Virus record (IMG/VR): IMGVR_UViG_3300033145_000922
Coordinates: 1 to 20,576 of that record
Origin: a virus
Length of the DNA stretch: 20,576 nucleotides
Direction: 5' to 3' (one strand)
The notes under the pieces are model-generated. The model ran no database searches. It saw only the letters and a list, made by a program, of their open reading frames with translations, and had not been told where the DNA came from. A program made the position numbers and the translations under genes. Shown here one piece after another: positions 4,858 through 19,511 of the stretch. Each line of letters starts with the position of its first letter. The stretch's first letter is position 1.

Positions 4858-6171
4858 ATGTCTGAAGTAAAAGATCTTTTTACAGAATTAAATAAAGCGT
4901 TCGATGAATTTAAAAGCGCGAATGATGTACGGTTGAAAGCAGTTGAAAAGAATGGTGTGGCAGACCCGTTGCTTGAAGACAAGGTTAACAAGGCTAACGA
5001 GGCTGTAACCGAGCTTGAAATCAAACTGGCTGATGCTCAAAAGGAAGCAAAAAACAGGATGGATAAACTTGAGCTTGAGTTGCAGACGGCGGGGTTGAAT
5101 GCCGGGCAAAGCTCAGGTCAAGACGACATCAAGAATGAGGCAGCTCTGTTTTTCTCTGCGGTTCAGGGAAAACCTGTTGAAAATGTCGATGTTGATGCGT
5201 ATGTCTCATACAAGCAAGCATTCAACCATTATCTGAGGAGGGGAGATAGGGCTTTACCAACGGACATCAAAAACGCTCTTTCGGTTGGGTCTGATCCTGA
5301 TGGTGGACAGTGGGTTCCGGCCTCGACCACTAATAAGATCATAAAAAAGATGTTCGATACGTCCCCAATGCGACAGATTGCGAATGTCGTAACAATTGGG
5401 ACTGACAGACTTGAGATTCCAAAAGACCTCGCGGAGGGGACTTCTGGCGGATGGGTCGGGGAGACAGCATCTCGTGCCGCTACCGCAACTCCTGAGGTCG
5501 GGTTACAGGAAATTCCGGTCCATGAACAATACGCGTCACCGAAAGCAACCCAGAAACTTATTGATGATGCCCAGTTCCCTGTCGAAAACTGGCTGAGAAA
5601 TAAAATTGCTGACAAACTAATAAGCGATGAAAACACGGCGTTCGTGTCCGGCAACGGGGTTATGAAACCTCGTGGATTCACGGATTACAGTACCTTGACA
5701 ACCAATGATGCTTCCAGGGCGTGGGGTGTGTTACAACACGTTCTTTCCGGGTCTTCCGGTGCTTTGCCTGATACCCCTGATGAACTAATCGATATAACCG
5801 GCAAATTAAAGGCTGTGTATCGCAGGAACGCGGTATGGGTAATGAACAGGTTTACGAGGTCGGGGTTGAGGAAGTTGAACGATAGCAATACTCAATATTA
5901 CCTGATATCCGATCTCTCAACCGGTGGAAGTTCTTCTTTATTGGGCTTTCCGATTGTTGAGTTCGACGATATGGACAGCGCGGGCGCAAACAACCTGGTT
6001 GCCGCGTTTGGTGATTTCAATACTGGTTATCAGGTTGTTGATAGAGCTGGGATTCGAGTGTTACGCGATCCTTTCACCGACAAGCCTTATATTTTGTATT
6101 ACACGACCAAGCGGGTTGGTGGGGATGTCACTAATTTTGATGCCATTAAAATATTAAAATGCACCGCATAA
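4858..6171 (+). CDS. Major capsid protein, HK97 fold
   Basis: This 437-residue protein is the main shell subunit. Residues 1 to about 80 are charged and heptad-like (LFTELNKAFDEF, EAVTELEIKLADA), matching the N-terminal delta domain that serves as an internal scaffold in HK97-type capsids. Cleavage by the upstream protease would fall somewhere between this domain and LSVGSDPDGGQWVP at about 141-154, the conserved entry to the mature fold. Later family features include the GGWVGETASRA segment, the KLIDDAQFPVENWL region (typical of the long spine helix) and the C-terminal DPFTDKPYILYYTTKRVGG. No separate scaffold gene is present, as expected. An AGGAGG at 4845-4850, seven bases before the ATG, is among the strongest ribosome binding sites here and fits high expression. 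Confidence 0.94.
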   Translation: MSEVKDLFTELNKAFDEFKSANDVRLKAVEKNGVADPLLEDKVNKANEAVTELEIKLADAQKEAKNRMDKLELELQTAGLNAGQSSGQDDIKNEAALFFSAVQGKPVENVDVDAYVSYKQAFNHYLRRGDRALPTDIKNALSVGSDPDGGQWVPASTTNKIIKKMFDTSPMRQIANVVTIGTDRLEIPKDLAEGTSGGWVGETASRAATATPEVGLQEIPVHEQYASPKATQKLIDDAQFPVENWLRNKIADKLISDENTAFVSGNGVMKPRGFTDYSTLTTNDASRAWGVLQHVLSGSSGALPDTPDELIDITGKLKAVYRRNAVWVMNRFTRSGLRKLNDSNTQYYLISDLSTGGSSSLLGFPIVEFDDMDSAGANNLVAAFGDFNTGYQVVDRAGIRVLRDPFTDKPYILYYTTKRVGGDVTNFDAIKILKCTA

Positions 6172-6189: not shown

Positions 6190-6639
6190 ATGTTGAAAGA
6201 TTTCGTATCTAAAACAGCGAACAAGTATCATTATGCAGGGATTTACACTGCCACTGAGACACCCGGTAGCGGGATCGACTTAAAAGGCTGTTCTTCTGCC
6301 ACGGTCATTTGTCTGATTGGGGCAATCACCAACATTGCCAACAGCCCTGTCCCTTCATGGACGTTTACTTTGCAGGATTCGGCTGATGACAGTACTTATG
6401 CCGCGGTTGAGACTGCGGATGTTTTAATAACCTACGGAAAAAATGATGGGGCGGTCGCTTCCGGGGTTTTTGCTACTATTGATGCCGCAGCCGATGATGC
6501 CGCGTTGTATTCTATTGGATATATCGGTGACAAACGGTATATCAGGGTAGTCGCCACTGCGGCTGATACACCGGGCAATACCGCGATTGCGGTGTCTGTT
6601 GTGTGTGAGTCGTTACAGAAACCACAGGACGACAGTTAA
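6190..6639 (+). CDS. Putative head decoration / minor virion protein
   Basis: This 149-residue protein is not assigned to a named family with certainty. It has the look of small phage structural proteins encoded right after the capsid gene: alternating beta-strand-like segments, LQDSADDSTYAAVETAD (sample-versus-spread phrasing common in such proteins) and the C-terminal GYIGDKRYIRVVATAA motif. It is rich in Ser, Thr, Ala and Asp and has no signal peptide or membrane segment. The strong AGGAGG at 6177-6182 suggests high expression, as for a capsid-bound protein present in many copies. It ends at TAA 6637-6639, and the accessory cassette begins at the very next base. A decoration role is inferred from position and sequence style. 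Confidence 0.6.
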   Translation: MLKDFVSKTANKYHYAGIYTATETPGSGIDLKGCSSATVICLIGAITNIANSPVPSWTFTLQDSADDSTYAAVETADVLITYGKNDGAVASGVFATIDAAADDAALYSIGYIGDKRYIRVVATAADTPGNTAIAVSVVCESLQKPQDDS

Positions 6640-7206
6640 TTGAAAACATGTGTAATTATAGCAGGAGGGCCGTCTCTGGTTAGGGAGGATGTCTCTCTGG
6701 CAGAGCGGTCAACCTGGATGATTATGGGTGTAAACAACGCTTTTAAGATTTGTGAGAAATTAGACTACTGGTATGCTTGTGACGCTGCTTTTTGGAAACG
6801 AAACAAGGGCGGACTCGGTGTTCAAGTTAAAAAGTATTCTTTAGAGCAGACTCCCTACACGGATGTTTTTTGTCTTACTAATTCAGGTGTGACCGGGGTT
6901 TCAATCGATTGGCCGTGTCTGAAAACAGGCGGAAACAGTGGCTATCAGGCAATTAATTTAGCGGTCTTGCTGGGGTTCAGGAAGATTGTCCTCTTGGGTT
7001 ACGATATGCAAAGAACTTATGGGAAAGCCCACTGGCATGAAGACCATAAAGGGAATAACCCCACGGACAACAGTCTAAAAAGGTGGGTTGACGAGTACAA
7101 CAACTTAGCTGTCATATTAGATGGGATCGGGGTAGAGGTGCTCAACGCGTCACGAGAAACAGCGTTAAAGTGTTTTAAAAAAGTTTCTTTAGGAGCTGTA
7201 TTATGA
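6640..7206 (+). CDS. MptE/DUF115-like protein (Rossmann-type, accessory)
   Basis: This 188-residue protein shows hallmarks of the 6-hydroxymethylpterin pyrophosphokinase MptE-like/DUF115 group, which also includes motility-associated and sialyltransferase-like proteins. The hallmarks are GGPSL at 9-13 after a beta strand (CVIIA), NNAF at 32-35, GGNSGYQAINLAVLLG at 97-112 and IVLLGYDM at 116-123, followed by a histidine cluster HWHEDH at 131-136. The fold probably binds a nucleotide or nucleotide-sugar. The true reaction is unknown; family members have been linked to pterin diphosphate transfer and to flagellin glycosylation. It starts at TTG, directly abutting the previous stop, and overlaps the next gene as ATGA. 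Its GC (about 47% in two counted lines) resembles the phage core more than the three genes after it. Confidence 0.7.
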   Translation: MKTCVIIAGGPSLVREDVSLAERSTWMIMGVNNAFKICEKLDYWYACDAAFWKRNKGGLGVQVKKYSLEQTPYTDVFCLTNSGVTGVSIDWPCLKTGGNSGYQAINLAVLLGFRKIVLLGYDMQRTYGKAHWHEDHKGNNPTDNSLKRWVDEYNNLAVILDGIGVEVLNASRETALKCFKKVSLGAVL

Positions 7207-7769
7207 GTCGTGGATACTCTCAAGCTCTTGAAAGCAGAGGCGAAGAAGTTTTAAGACGTTTATCTGGGGTCGAAGCTCCTGTTGTTGTTGAGATCGGGGT
7301 TGCAACCGGCAAACTATCAAGGTTTTTGCTTAAAAAAAGAAATGATTTAATTTTGTACATGGTTGATAATTGGTTGCCGCAAGAAAAACAGCCTGTAAGT
7401 TATGTTGCTACAAATGATAGCAATTCTCAATTGACTGAACATGCTCAAGTGGATCGGAGACAATGTGCTTTGACCGTCAAAAATTCTTTTTCAGACAGGG
7501 CAGATATTTTAAATATGAATTCGGTTGATGCAGCGCAAATAATACAAAATGGAATTGATCTTGTTTTTTTGGATGCGGATCATTCTTATTCTGGTGTCAC
7601 TGCCGATATTCTTGCCTGGAAAGGAAAAGTAAAAAAAGGAGGGTGGCTTGGCGGACATGATTATAAAAACTTTGATTCTCGGTTTAATTTTGAAGTGACT
7701 AAAGCCGTAGACGATTTGTTTCCTTTAATAGAAATTGGTGCAAATTATACATGGTGGGTTTTAAGGTGA
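7203..7769 (+). CDS. Class I SAM-dependent methyltransferase
   Basis: This 188-residue protein fits a Rossmann-fold methyltransferase of the Methyltransf_24 type. Motif I is VVEIGVATG at 28-36. Asp55 in LYMVDNW sits where the SAM ribose-binding acidic residue is expected. DLVFLDADHSYSGV at 119-132 is the motif IV region, followed by KVKKGGWLGGHDY at 142-154. The DADH...GGHDY pattern is shared with small methyltransferases encoded in polysaccharide clusters, so a sugar or glycan acceptor is plausible, but this is inferred. Downstream and upstream genes overlap it (ATGA before, GTGA after), so it is probably translationally coupled to both. It is AT-rich (about 30% GC in one counted line). Confidence 0.8.
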   Translation: MSRGYSQALESRGEEVLRRLSGVEAPVVVEIGVATGKLSRFLLKKRNDLILYMVDNWLPQEKQPVSYVATNDSNSQLTEHAQVDRRQCALTVKNSFSDRADILNMNSVDAAQIIQNGIDLVFLDADHSYSGVTADILAWKGKVKKGGWLGGHDYKNFDSRFNFEVTKAVDDLFPLIEIGANYTWWVLR

Positions 7770-8326
7770 TTTTGGCTGATAAATATATATTCGTACATGT
7801 CCCTAAGACTGGCGGTCAGTCTATTTCCAGGGCGTTGGGTGGGAAAACCCAAGATATTGCGACCCATACACCTTTGTCTGCTGTAGACAAAGACAATAGG
7901 TTTGCTTTTGGGTTTGTCCGTAATCCTTGGGATCGTATGGTTAGCTTGTATTGTTTTCTTTGTCAAAAAACTTTTAAAGTCACGGATAATTTTAATCAAA
8001 AAGAAGTGAAAAAGGCTGGATTTAAAAAATGGCTTATGCAATATGAATTTTATATGCAGGAGGATTGTTTGAGGGAAGGGTTGCAACCCATGCAGAGGCG
8101 GACACAGCTTTTTTGGTTGAGAAATTGTGACTATGTCGGGATGTTGGAACGTATAGAAAATGATTTTAAAATCGCCTGTAAATTAGCAAGTATTAAACAA
8201 GAGACACTACCACATGTCAACAAGACTGAACGTGGTGTGTATCAGCAATATTATGACAATAAAAGCCGAGAGCATGTGGCAAAATTTTTTGAGCCGGAAA
8301 TAACAAAATTTGGATATTTATTTTGA
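7766..8326 (+). CDS. Sulfotransferase family protein (Sulfotransfer_2-like)
   Basis: This 186-residue protein is a predicted PAPS-dependent sulfotransferase, which would move sulfate onto a hydroxyl, typically of a carbohydrate. YIFVHVPKTGGQSI at 7-20 is the 5'-phosphosulfate-binding loop with Lys14. FGFVRNPWDRMVSLY at 48-62 is the 3'-phosphate-binding segment, with Arg52 and Ser60 in the expected places. Its length is at the short end for this family, whose phage and bacterial members are often about 200 residues. I chose GTG 7766, which overlaps the previous stop as GTGA and has GGTGGG six bases upstream. ATG 7751 would add five residues and overlap 19 bases. The gene is AT-rich (about 30% GC in two counted lines). 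Confidence 0.8.
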   Translation: MILADKYIFVHVPKTGGQSISRALGGKTQDIATHTPLSAVDKDNRFAFGFVRNPWDRMVSLYCFLCQKTFKVTDNFNQKEVKKAGFKKWLMQYEFYMQEDCLREGLQPMQRRTQLFWLRNCDYVGMLERIENDFKIACKLASIKQETLPHVNKTERGVYQQYYDNKSREHVAKFFEPEITKFGYLF

Positions 8327-8889
8327 AACTCATAACAGTAAATAAATCCGGGGGTGTTTATAGGCCTGAACATACGGACAGGCTGGAAAGTCAATGTAAA
8401 AAGTTTGCTCCTGGTGTTGAATTTGTTTGCTTGGATGATAGTAATTTATTACATAATTGGCCAGGCTGGTGGTCAAAGATGGAAACATTTAGATTTTTGG
8501 GGCCTGTCCTCTACCTTGATTTAAGCAATACAATTATCAATGATCTAAAACCATTACTTTATATCGCTAAAAAACATTCATTTGTTGTTACTAAAGATTT
8601 TAATTTTCCTCAAAGGCTTGTTCAAAGTTGTATAATGTCCTGGGCTGGGGACATGAGATGGCTGTATGAAAAGTTCTTAAAAACCCCCAGTGCTTATATA
8701 GAAACATATAAAACACCAGATCGCTGGGGTGATCAAGGGTTTATTGAAGTTCATGCCAACACGTGGAAATACTGGCAGGATATCTTACCGGAATCTGTCT
8801 GCAGCTACAAAAAAAACAAGATTATTCCTGATAATTGCAGGATTATTAATTTTCATGGAAAGCCTAAACCTTGGGAGGTTAAAAATTGA
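8323..8889 (+). CDS. Glycosyltransferase-like protein with altered DXD
   Basis: This 188-residue protein resembles small GT-A-type glycosyltransferases found in phages and surface-sugar clusters. Recognisable parts are the N-terminal MKLITVN strand, WPGWWSKMETFRF at 46-58, PVLYLDLSNTII at 61-72, DRWGDQGF at 133-140 and the C-terminal INFHGKPKPWEV at 175-186. The site that is normally Asp-x-Asp, binding the metal and nucleotide-sugar, reads Asp66-Leu-Ser68, so metal-dependent catalysis may be weakened or altered. It starts at TTG overlapping the previous stop as TTGA, with GGAT about eight bases upstream. It is the most AT-rich gene here (about 23-28% GC in two counted lines). Donor and acceptor cannot be read from the sequence. 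Confidence 0.7.
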   Translation: MKLITVNKSGGVYRPEHTDRLESQCKKFAPGVEFVCLDDSNLLHNWPGWWSKMETFRFLGPVLYLDLSNTIINDLKPLLYIAKKHSFVVTKDFNFPQRLVQSCIMSWAGDMRWLYEKFLKTPSAYIETYKTPDRWGDQGFIEVHANTWKYWQDILPESVCSYKKNKIIPDNCRIINFHGKPKPWEVKN

Positions 8890-9485
8890 TTATACCAACA
8901 CGAGTAACCGCCCCTGCGGTTGAGCCGGTTACTTTGTCAGAAATAAAAACGCATTTGCGAGGGATTAATCATCTCGAACATGAAACATTGCTTAGGAATC
9001 TGATTGAATCTGCCCGGCAACAGGTGGAAGCTCAAACAGGGCGTGCTTTGGTGCAGCGTCAGGTAATTGCCTATTTCGAAGGTTGGCCTGATTCCAACGT
9101 GTTCGAATTACCTTTTCCGAAACTGCAAAGTGTCACTACAGTAAAATACACAGGCACGGACGGAACACAGTCAACTTTCTCAACCGACAACTATTCTGTC
9201 GATATCGATTCAGAGCCAGGCAGGGTAGTCTTAGGCTATTCAAAAACATGGCCATCCACGACATTGCACGAGCTTGATAACCCCATTGAGATTACGTATT
9301 TATGCGGTTACGCTCCTACGGCTGACAGTCCGGCTGATTATGTTGCCAACATACCTGAGAGTATAAAAACCGCCATGAAGTTCATTGTGGAACTTAATTA
9401 TGACCGACCGCCAGACGGGTACGCAAAGACTCTTGAAAACGCGGTGGATGCCCTTCTCGCGGTTTACAAGGTCTGGGGGTTTTAA
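8886..9485 (+). CDS. Head-tail connector, gp6-like (phiE125 gp8 family)
   Basis: This 199-residue protein is the adaptor ring that binds below the portal. It matches the gp6-like/phiE125 gp8 family: VEPVTLSEIKTHLRG near residue 15, LIESARQQVEAQTGRALVQRQ, the FELPFPKLQSVTTVKY strand region, and the closing block NIPESIKTAMKFIVELNY...AVDALLAVYKVWGF. The start is TTG 8886, overlapping the cassette's last stop as TTGA. A very good GGGAGGT at 8873-8879 inside the upstream gene supports this start despite the weak codon. Its GC content returns to about 40%, so the AT-rich patch ends at this boundary. Confidence 0.88.
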   Translation: MIIPTRVTAPAVEPVTLSEIKTHLRGINHLEHETLLRNLIESARQQVEAQTGRALVQRQVIAYFEGWPDSNVFELPFPKLQSVTTVKYTGTDGTQSTFSTDNYSVDIDSEPGRVVLGYSKTWPSTTLHELDNPIEITYLCGYAPTADSPADYVANIPESIKTAMKFIVELNYDRPPDGYAKTLENAVDALLAVYKVWGF

Positions 9486-17504: not shown

Positions 17505-19511
17505 ATGGCATCTGCTCGCAGACTCGGCGCAAATTACGGCACTCCTGCCACTTATGGCATAGGCAAGAATTATAATGACTTTGCTACTTGGGAAGCGGCC
17601 ACAGATATTGATCTTGTGACGGATCAAGTTTCAAAAGTCCTCGATGTGGATGCAGGGTCGTGGGACGATAGCATGGCAATGGAGATGCCGGATGCGGCCT
17701 ATTCCGATTCTACATATTTCAGGACTGTCAGAGCCGCTTCGGGTGATGGACATTCGGGGATTATAAAAACTGACGGAACAGTCGCTCATGTTAGAGCGAG
17801 TGACGCATGGAAATGCATTATTATCAAAGAAAGATACGCTCAAGTACAAGATCTTGTAATCACAAACTCGAATGCGTCTTTTAATGGTGGATTGATATAC
17901 TTTACTACTGATGCTATCGGTGCGGCCTTCGTTGGATGTTTATGTGATACAGACGGGGGGTCAAGCACTGAGCAAGGGGTCTTATCTGACAGTCGGACAG
18001 ATGCAGGTTCAGCTTTCGTAATTGATTGCATTATCGCTAACACTGTTGGTACAGGCGTCGCTGGTGGTAGTGGAATACTGGATGTAAAGAACACAACTGT
18101 TGATAATTGTGGTGGTACATGGGGTTTTAGCGAGGGTAGCAGTGGCACACTGATTGCTGTTAATTGTATTTGCCGAAATTCCGGTTCTTCTGGGGATTAT
18201 GATTCAGATGCAGCGTTAACTAAATGTGCGTCTTCTGATGACACTGGATCAACAGGCCTGATAAACCTGACTTTTGATTTCGTTAATGCCGCAGGTGGTG
18301 ATTATCATCTTGATACTGGCTCTCCTGGTATTGGAGAGGGGGACGACCTCTCGGCTACCGGGAATTATGAGTTCGATGATGATGTTGATGGAGATACTAT
18401 CTCTGGAGATTGGAATTGTGGGGCGGATTGGTTCTCATCTGGTCCCACTTACACGCTCACATCAGCCGCAGGCACTTTTACTTTAACCGGGGCAGTTGCG
18501 AATCTCTTAAAAAACCATGTTTTATCAGCAGGGTCTGGCAGTTACGCCTTATCCGGCACTGATGCGGGATTGTTGCATGGTAGAGTTTTAACAACAAGCG
18601 TAGGGGTTTTTACACTATCTGGCACTAATGCAGATTTATTACATGATAGGGTTTTAAATGCTGGGATTGGTAGTTTTGGTTTGTCTGGCACGAACGCAGG
18701 GCTGCTTTATAACAGGGTTTTTAATGTAGACGCTGGCAGTTTTATTTTATCCGGCACAGTAGCAACCTTATTACATGACAGAGTCTTATCGGCCGAAACT
18801 GGTGGCTTTTCTTTAGCTGGCACAGAGGTTACGTTCTTTTACGGGGCCACTTATATTTTAGTGGCTGACGCTGGCAGCTATGTTTTGTCAGGCATAAATG
18901 CAGATTTATTTCATAATCGAGTTTTAACCGCAGTTTCCGGCAGCTATGTTTTGACAGGAGCTGACGCAGAGTTGCTACATGGCAGGGTCTTATCGGCTGG
19001 TATTGGCAGTCTTGTTTTATCCGGCACTGATGCGGGATTATTACATGATAGAGTGTTGTCTGTTAATGTAGGGGTTTTTAACCTGGCCGGTACGGCAGCA
19101 AGCTTATTGCGCAACTATGTTTTGCCTGCTGATGCTGGCAGTTTTATTTTAACTGGCACTGATCCAGACTTATTACATAATCGAGTTTTATCGGCTGGAT
19201 CAGGCAGTTTTATTTTATCTGGAACCGATATTTCATTTGTTTACGGAATAGCTTATATTTTAACGGCTGATTCAGGTAGTTTTGCTTTATCTGGCACAGC
19301 AGCAGACTTATTGCATAATCGAGTTTTAACGGCAGACGCTGGGCTTTTTGTTTTATCCGGCACGGCAGTTGTTTTTGTTTCTTCTGATGTACCTTCAGGG
19401 ATAGTTACTGTCGCTTTTACACCGTCACAACTGATTGTCTCATTTACGGTTACAGCCCCGAAGGTTTCTTCTACGTCATTGTCACCGGGAATAACTTTTA
19501 CTAACAATTAA
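17505..19511 (+). CDS. Tail fibre: beta-helix-like region plus 22-residue repeats
   Basis: This 668-residue protein is a likely receptor-binding fibre. An N-terminal segment (YGIGKNYNDFATWEAATDID) resembles the start of phage and bacterial parallel beta-helix proteins. Residues about 100-310 look beta-helical (DLVITNSNASFNGG, AFVGCLCDTDG, CIIANTVGTGV, LDVKNTTVDNCGG, LIAVNCICRNSG), and end in the CGADWF-type closing motif common to such proteins. Residues 317-628 are fourteen tandem units with the pattern VLxAxxGSFxLSGTxAxLLHxR. The last 40 residues are a short beta-rich tail. At least ten Cys lie in the beta-helix part and none in the repeats. A GAGG lies at 17490-17493. Attachment of the repeat region to host surface is inferred. 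Confidence 0.75.
   Translation: MASARRLGANYGTPATYGIGKNYNDFATWEAATDIDLVTDQVSKVLDVDAGSWDDSMAMEMPDAAYSDSTYFRTVRAASGDGHSGIIKTDGTVAHVRASDAWKCIIIKERYAQVQDLVITNSNASFNGGLIYFTTDAIGAAFVGCLCDTDGGSSTEQGVLSDSRTDAGSAFVIDCIIANTVGTGVAGGSGILDVKNTTVDNCGGTWGFSEGSSGTLIAVNCICRNSGSSGDYDSDAALTKCASSDDTGSTGLINLTFDFVNAAGGDYHLDTGSPGIGEGDDLSATGNYEFDDDVDGDTISGDWNCGADWFSSGPTYTLTSAAGTFTLTGAVANLLKNHVLSAGSGSYALSGTDAGLLHGRVLTTSVGVFTLSGTNADLLHDRVLNAGIGSFGLSGTNAGLLYNRVFNVDAGSFILSGTVATLLHDRVLSAETGGFSLAGTEVTFFYGATYILVADAGSYVLSGINADLFHNRVLTAVSGSYVLTGADAELLHGRVLSAGIGSLVLSGTDAGLLHDRVLSVNVGVFNLAGTAASLLRNYVLPADAGSFILTGTDPDLLHNRVLSAGSGSFILSGTDISFVYGIAYILTADSGSFALSGTAADLLHNRVLTADAGLFVLSGTAVVFVSSDVPSGIVTVAFTPSQLIVSFTVTAPKVSSTSLSPGITFTNN
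18453..19388 (+). repeat. Fourteen 66-72 bp coding repeats with a 402-bp super-period
   Basis: Fourteen tandem units encode residues 317-628 of the fibre. Twelve are 22 residues long. Units 6 and 12 are 24 residues long and end differently (VTFFYGATY and ISFVYGIAY). This divides the array into two blocks of six units, 18453-18854 and 18855-19256, each 134 codons, plus two final units. The frame is kept throughout and there are no spacers. Identity is high enough at DNA level for units 2 and 9 to share more than 20 identical bases. Confidence 0.9.

Follow-up and report, generated by a model that had tools for sequence, protein, structure and literature searches.

The closest described relatives of the genes considered here are found in phages D3, PMG1 and P1. 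In D3 and PMG1 one gene annotated as an alpha-2,3-sialyltransferase (D3 orf7, PMG1 gp8) lies between the major head protein and the head-tail adaptor; P1 carries a cluster of pmgO, pmgP, ppp and pmgQ, and knock-down and, earlier, deletion have shown its three pmg genes to be dispensable (PMC10695390). In bacteria, the PF01973 domain (Maf_flag10), which is CstII-like, belongs to enzymes that O-glycosylate serine and threonine residues of flagellin with nonulosonic acids, Neu5Ac or Kdo (PMC11339370). Sugars on virus particles are known as well: capsid and tail-tube proteins of mycobacteriophages are glycosylated, as the citing text reports (Freeman et al. 2023, cited in PMC12619734); among giant viruses, PBCV-1 A64R is a fusion of glycosyltransferase and methyltransferase, and the acceptors of Mimivirus L230 are collagen-like (PMC4691112).

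The window (the whole stretch of DNA analyzed, 20,576 bases of a viral record) holds a cassette of four genes in the head operon of what is, judged by its sequence, a siphophage distantly related to D3. Its terminase is ~45% identical to those of D3-type Pseudomonas phages, the best isolates among the matches listed, and 60-64% identical to those of three uncultured contigs. A sequence-only reading had placed four overlapping genes between a putative decoration gene and the head-tail connector, and had quoted motifs for four enzyme classes; the open reading frames are found there (Table 1), overlapping by 4, 19 and 4 nt, and every motif quoted is present in them. A Clp-type protease gene is also among the neighbors of the cassette. 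The methyltransferase, sulfotransferase and glycosyltransferase genes have the lowest three GC values of 24 genes compared (0.36-0.38), which fits the expectation for later arrivals. The product of the gene just upstream, which would be a decoration protein and the glycan acceptor, has a combined serine and threonine content of 18.8%, against 13.3% for the capsid protein. Elsewhere in the window (17505-19511), a putative fiber protein of 668 aa contains a run of ~26-residue repeats (AGSFxLSGTxAxLLHNRVL).

Table 1. The cassette and its neighbors in the window
Feature	Coordinates	Strand	Evidence and remarks
HK97-type major capsid protein, alternative acceptor	4858..6171	+	PF05065 E=2.2e-69
Putative head decoration protein, proposed acceptor	6190..6639	+	phrog_5707 (unknown function) E=1.5e-15; cassette directly downstream
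Maf/MptE-like (GT42/CstII-like) putative ulosonic-acid transferase	6640..7206	+	PF01973 E=1.5e-7; phrog_4603 E=5.5e-42
SAM-dependent methyltransferase (Methyltransf_24), putative sugar O-methyltransferase	7203..7769	+	PF13578 E=6.8e-16
PAPS-dependent sulfotransferase (Sulfotransfer_2)	7751..8326	+	PF03567 E=1.5e-8; phrog_3347 E=5.8e-15; PKTGGQS and RNPWDRMVS
GT8-like (GT-A fold) glycosyltransferase, DLS replacing DLD	8323..8889	+	phrog_1962 E=1e-36
gp6-like head-tail connector, downstream border of cassette	8886..9485	+	PF05135 E=1.5e-6; phrog_442 E=1.7e-24

The first gene of the cassette encodes a protein that scores 31.8 bits against PF01973 (curated cut-off 34.6), and 42 of its 44 aligned relatives match that model at E<=0.01. 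The PHROG family that it matches is labeled ‘alpha-2,3-sialyltransferase’, and a profile of the family, compared with solved structures, finds the Campylobacter jejuni sialyltransferase CstII at E=0.0012. The protein is a single domain of 188 aa in a phage head operon, not the three-domain architecture of Maf; it is therefore classed as a relative of the Maf catalytic domain, and not as a Maf protein. Two other loci encode a 240-aa protein between decoration gene and connector (L003:2043-2768, L004:5205-5924), with GxGPxS...NG...D...NST.A motifs, that resembles a remote MptE-like relative; it has no match in Pfam or PHROG. Similar-looking proteins with an ...ISI(L/M)E... motif lie between capsid and MptE-like gene in two more (L063:4782-5543, L074:8811-9482), the former matching phrog_4652, a family of unknown function.

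The methyltransferase scores 59.5 bits against Methyltransf_24 (cut-off 26.3) and has a SAM-binding motif of the ExGxxxG type (EIGVATG); the best solved relative of its family profile is 6g7d (E=1e-4), which we take to be a mycobacterial mannoside O-methyltransferase. The sulfotransferase scores 35.6 bits against Sulfotransfer_2 (cut-off 22) and carries both PAPS motifs, for the 5'-phosphosulfate (PKTGGQS) and for the 3'-phosphate (RNPWDRMVS); Lys19, Arg57 and Ser65 are invariant in an alignment with seven relatives. Searched alone against viral sequences, the sulfotransferase gave no confirmed relative; an alignment was required to detect any. The glycosyltransferase has no Pfam match; its family profile matches 6mw5 (E=1.8e-7) and glycogenin, and its structure model (pLDDT 96.5) matches a GT8 enzyme in Foldseek (E=2.6e-6) and the PBCV-1 A64R structure (E=3.5e-4). 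At the place of the DxD metal-binding motif it reads DLS, as do its counterparts in loci L023, L024 and L025, where L063 and most others have DLD; it is therefore filed by fold only, as GT8-like. These profile matches, with PF01973 just below threshold in the window, bear out the assignments first made from the letters alone (DUF115-like protein, methyltransferase, sulfotransferase, glycosyltransferase), and the families back the view of the cassette as glycan-modifying.

Other arrangements of sulfotransferase-like genes were seen. In L023, a relative that shares the decoration-like gene of the window, the third cassette gene (L023:6349-6915) sits between MptE-like gene and glycosyltransferase and looks sulfotransferase-like (GASRSGTS, YRPRKQIEAS), while being unrelated to the window sulfotransferase; its candidacy as a second sulfotransferase type found no support from Pfam, PHROGs, NCBIfam or PDB sequences, and the protein stays without a family assignment. 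Many viral contigs (L106-L174) carry 2-8 sulfotransferase genes, clustered or in a row, with no head genes detected nearby.

The order MptE-like gene, methyltransferase, sulfotransferase, glycosyltransferase, connector is found again in three further, distinct phage contigs of IMG/VR: 3300035537_000039 (L025, with L026 and L027 near-identical), 3300032096_000001 (L063) and 3300009537_000855 (L103, with the MptE-like gene doubled); partial versions are found in L024, L104, L018 and L183. Chance is ruled out by this repeated occurrence of all four genes, identically ordered and placed, in other contigs. Of 80 viral loci selected by MptE, 72 have a head gene (capsid, portal, connector or stopper) no more than 3 kb from the MptE-like gene; the corresponding figures are 22/77 for glycosyltransferase-selected loci, 3/76 for sulfotransferase-selected viral loci and 0/80 for genomic sulfotransferases. 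Training of the profiles for head genes drew in part on the MptE-selected loci, which favors that set, and the loci were not fully dereplicated. The MptE-like gene is the anchor of the cassette. MptE distances show little correlation with terminase, portal, connector and glycosyltransferase distances (r 0.03, 0.19, 0.06 and -0.04), probably because the distances are saturated.

HK97-type phages had been expected from the sequence-only reading to run without interruption at this point; that expectation fails, as a PF01973-type gene occupies the capsid-connector site in D3, PMG1 and dozens of uncultured phages. Its impression that sulfotransferases are uncommon in a virion operon agrees with the neighborhood survey just given, and a search of the open-access literature turned up no paper that describes a sulfotransferase in a phage head operon. 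Among the 83 ORFs scanned in the capsid-connector interval of 38 distinct MptE-bearing loci, 12 match FkbM methyltransferases and 5 match GT2, with matches to further transferases; the extra ORFs that could be assigned are mostly methyl- and glycosyltransferases. The diversity of these matches marks the site as a variable hotspot for glycan enzymes, of which the four-gene set of the window is one version. Two relatives are without the cassette: L002, with a capsid 46% identical, carries small ORFs where the cassette would be; in L335 (terminase 63%) the connector directly follows the decoration-like gene, but this is not a clean empty site, as the capsid there is only 28% identical.

At 27 viral loci the MptE-like gene is preceded, at a distance of no more than 400 bp or with an overlap at its start, by a collagen-like ORF, defined by at least 8 consecutive GXY triplets; such an ORF is present in 23 of 80 MptE-selected loci (~30%) versus 0 of 76 sulfotransferase-selected loci. 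In the window the decoration-like gene occupies that place. A gene of either kind beside the MptE-like gene suggests that the acceptor is encoded next to the transferase; the collagen-like protein is plausibly another acceptor, and possibly a glycosylated virion fiber. These ORFs run to as many as 87 GXY triplets (L056:8299-9486, L057:922-2172, L039:694-1548 and L092:8838-9602 are examples, with ~23 other loci), and in many uncultured phages those beside the MptE-like gene sit downstream of the portal gene.

The cassette is most likely an accessory virion-glycosylation module in the head operon. The sequence establishes the families of four soluble enzymes and their gene order at a recurrent site; we infer the donor, the acceptor, the succession of steps and the biological effect, in a pathway that we hold to be moderately probable. 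That is, the Maf-like enzyme would transfer, in the cytoplasm, a CMP-activated ulosonic acid (Kdo or another host-made nonulosonic acid) to serine or threonine of an abundant protein of the head surface, for which the decoration-like product of the gene next upstream is the likeliest candidate. A nucleotide-activated hexose would be added by the GT8-like enzyme, and the glycan would be capped by the methyltransferase, through O-methylation, and by the sulfotransferase, through PAPS-dependent sulfation. Finally, a short anionic methylated glycan would coat the particle and alter its surface interactions, while being dispensable for assembly. Counting against this pathway are the preference of Foldseek for thiamin pyrophosphokinase, the PF01973 score below cut-off and the glycosyltransferase without the second Asp of DxD. 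The target had earlier been put as virion or host surface. The virion is now favored by the head-module location, the absence of transmembrane segments, the Maf homology and the decoration- or collagen-like genes upstream, although its modification is still something that we infer from these features.

A different target would be the host surface, with a polysaccharide or glycolipid there being altered by the enzymes, either in the lysogen or at a late stage of infection. Such a change might, for example, keep progeny from binding again to debris, or shut out other phages. By sequence, the closest relative with a solved structure is CstII, which acts on lipooligosaccharide; P1 and D3 are temperate phages and could alter their lysogens. 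However, the 72 of 80 loci place the MptE-like gene in the head module, not in lysogenic-conversion regions; none of the four cassette proteins has a hydrophobic stretch of transmembrane strength, which disfavors assembly of an envelope glycan; and the cassette holds no gene of flippase or lipid-carrier type. We consider a host-surface target unlikely.

Much less likely again is that the enzymes hypermodify bases of the phage DNA with a sulfated or methylated sugar, as protection against restriction. Phage DNA-modification systems have been proposed to include sulfotransferases and glycosyltransferases, according to the paper that cites that work (Iyer et al. 2013, cited in PMC10829341). Within the 20.6 kb window, however, the cassette has nothing but head and tail genes around it, and no gene for base modification was recognized. 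Homologs also occur in P1, in whose DNA we know of no glycosylated bases. A shade lower still we would place the idea that the MptE-like protein is a pyrophosphokinase or another nucleotide enzyme, the genes serving small-molecule metabolism: the Pfam name is 6-hydroxymethylpterin diphosphokinase, and Foldseek with the structure model (pLDDT 95) ranks thiamin pyrophosphokinase first (E=0.01), a sialyltransferase being weaker (E=0.15). Yet the sequence profile favors CstII, the MptE-like gene accompanies glycan enzymes at one site, and the Maf glycosyltransferases themselves belong to PF01973.

An extension of the virion-glycosylation reading, offered tentatively and a little short of an even chance, supposes that many HK97-type phages use the capsid-connector interval as a swap site for enzymes of virion glycosylation: a stand-alone Maf-like transferase would take the lead, the glycosyl-, methyl- and sulfotransferases that go with it would be interchangeable, with decoration or collagen-like head proteins as their substrates, and the virion glycan of the window phage would be sulfated. 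To our knowledge, that chemistry is known in no phage particle. Since the four-gene set recurs in other uncultured phages and its first gene stands beside head genes in many, sugar coats built by the virus itself may be more widespread than has been assumed. If the extension is true, virion glycosylation would be a common modular trait of tailed phages, with sulfation possible, and would matter for the stability and adhesion of virions and for their recognition by the immune system; P1 pmgO, pmgP and pmgQ and D3 orf7, so far annotated only as morphogenetic or sialyltransferase-like, would gain a testable function.

How, then, does the cassette compare with described systems? The D3 and PMG1 proteins belong to the same MptE-like family (~31% identity), and their gene occupies the same place; it is, however, a single gene, with no sulfotransferase or glycosyltransferase there and a methyltransferase a few genes downstream. 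The P1 cluster combines two MptE-like proteins with the same glycosyltransferase family; it differs in including a protein phosphatase gene (ppp), in having no sulfotransferase or methyltransferase, and in not lying between capsid and connector. With the Maf flagellin O-glycosyltransferases the window protein has in common the catalytic domain family, and the first step proposed for the cassette is O-glycosylation of Ser/Thr in the cytoplasm with ulosonic acids; it is without the N- and C-terminal Maf domains, however, and the flagellin-specific acceptor recognition shown for Maf cannot apply to it. In the mycobacteriophages the likeness lies in glycans on virion proteins, and the citing text mentions no Maf-like or sulfotransferase component. 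PBCV-1 A64R and Mimivirus L230 likewise serve virus-encoded glycosylation of capsid or fiber, but in giant viruses of eukaryotes with other gene content. Virion glycosylation is thus already known from giant viruses, collagen-like proteins included (PMC4691112), and, as the citing text has it, from mycobacteriophages (PMC12619734). What sets this cassette apart is the Maf-like starter gene, the recurrent site in the head operon, and the sulfotransferase.
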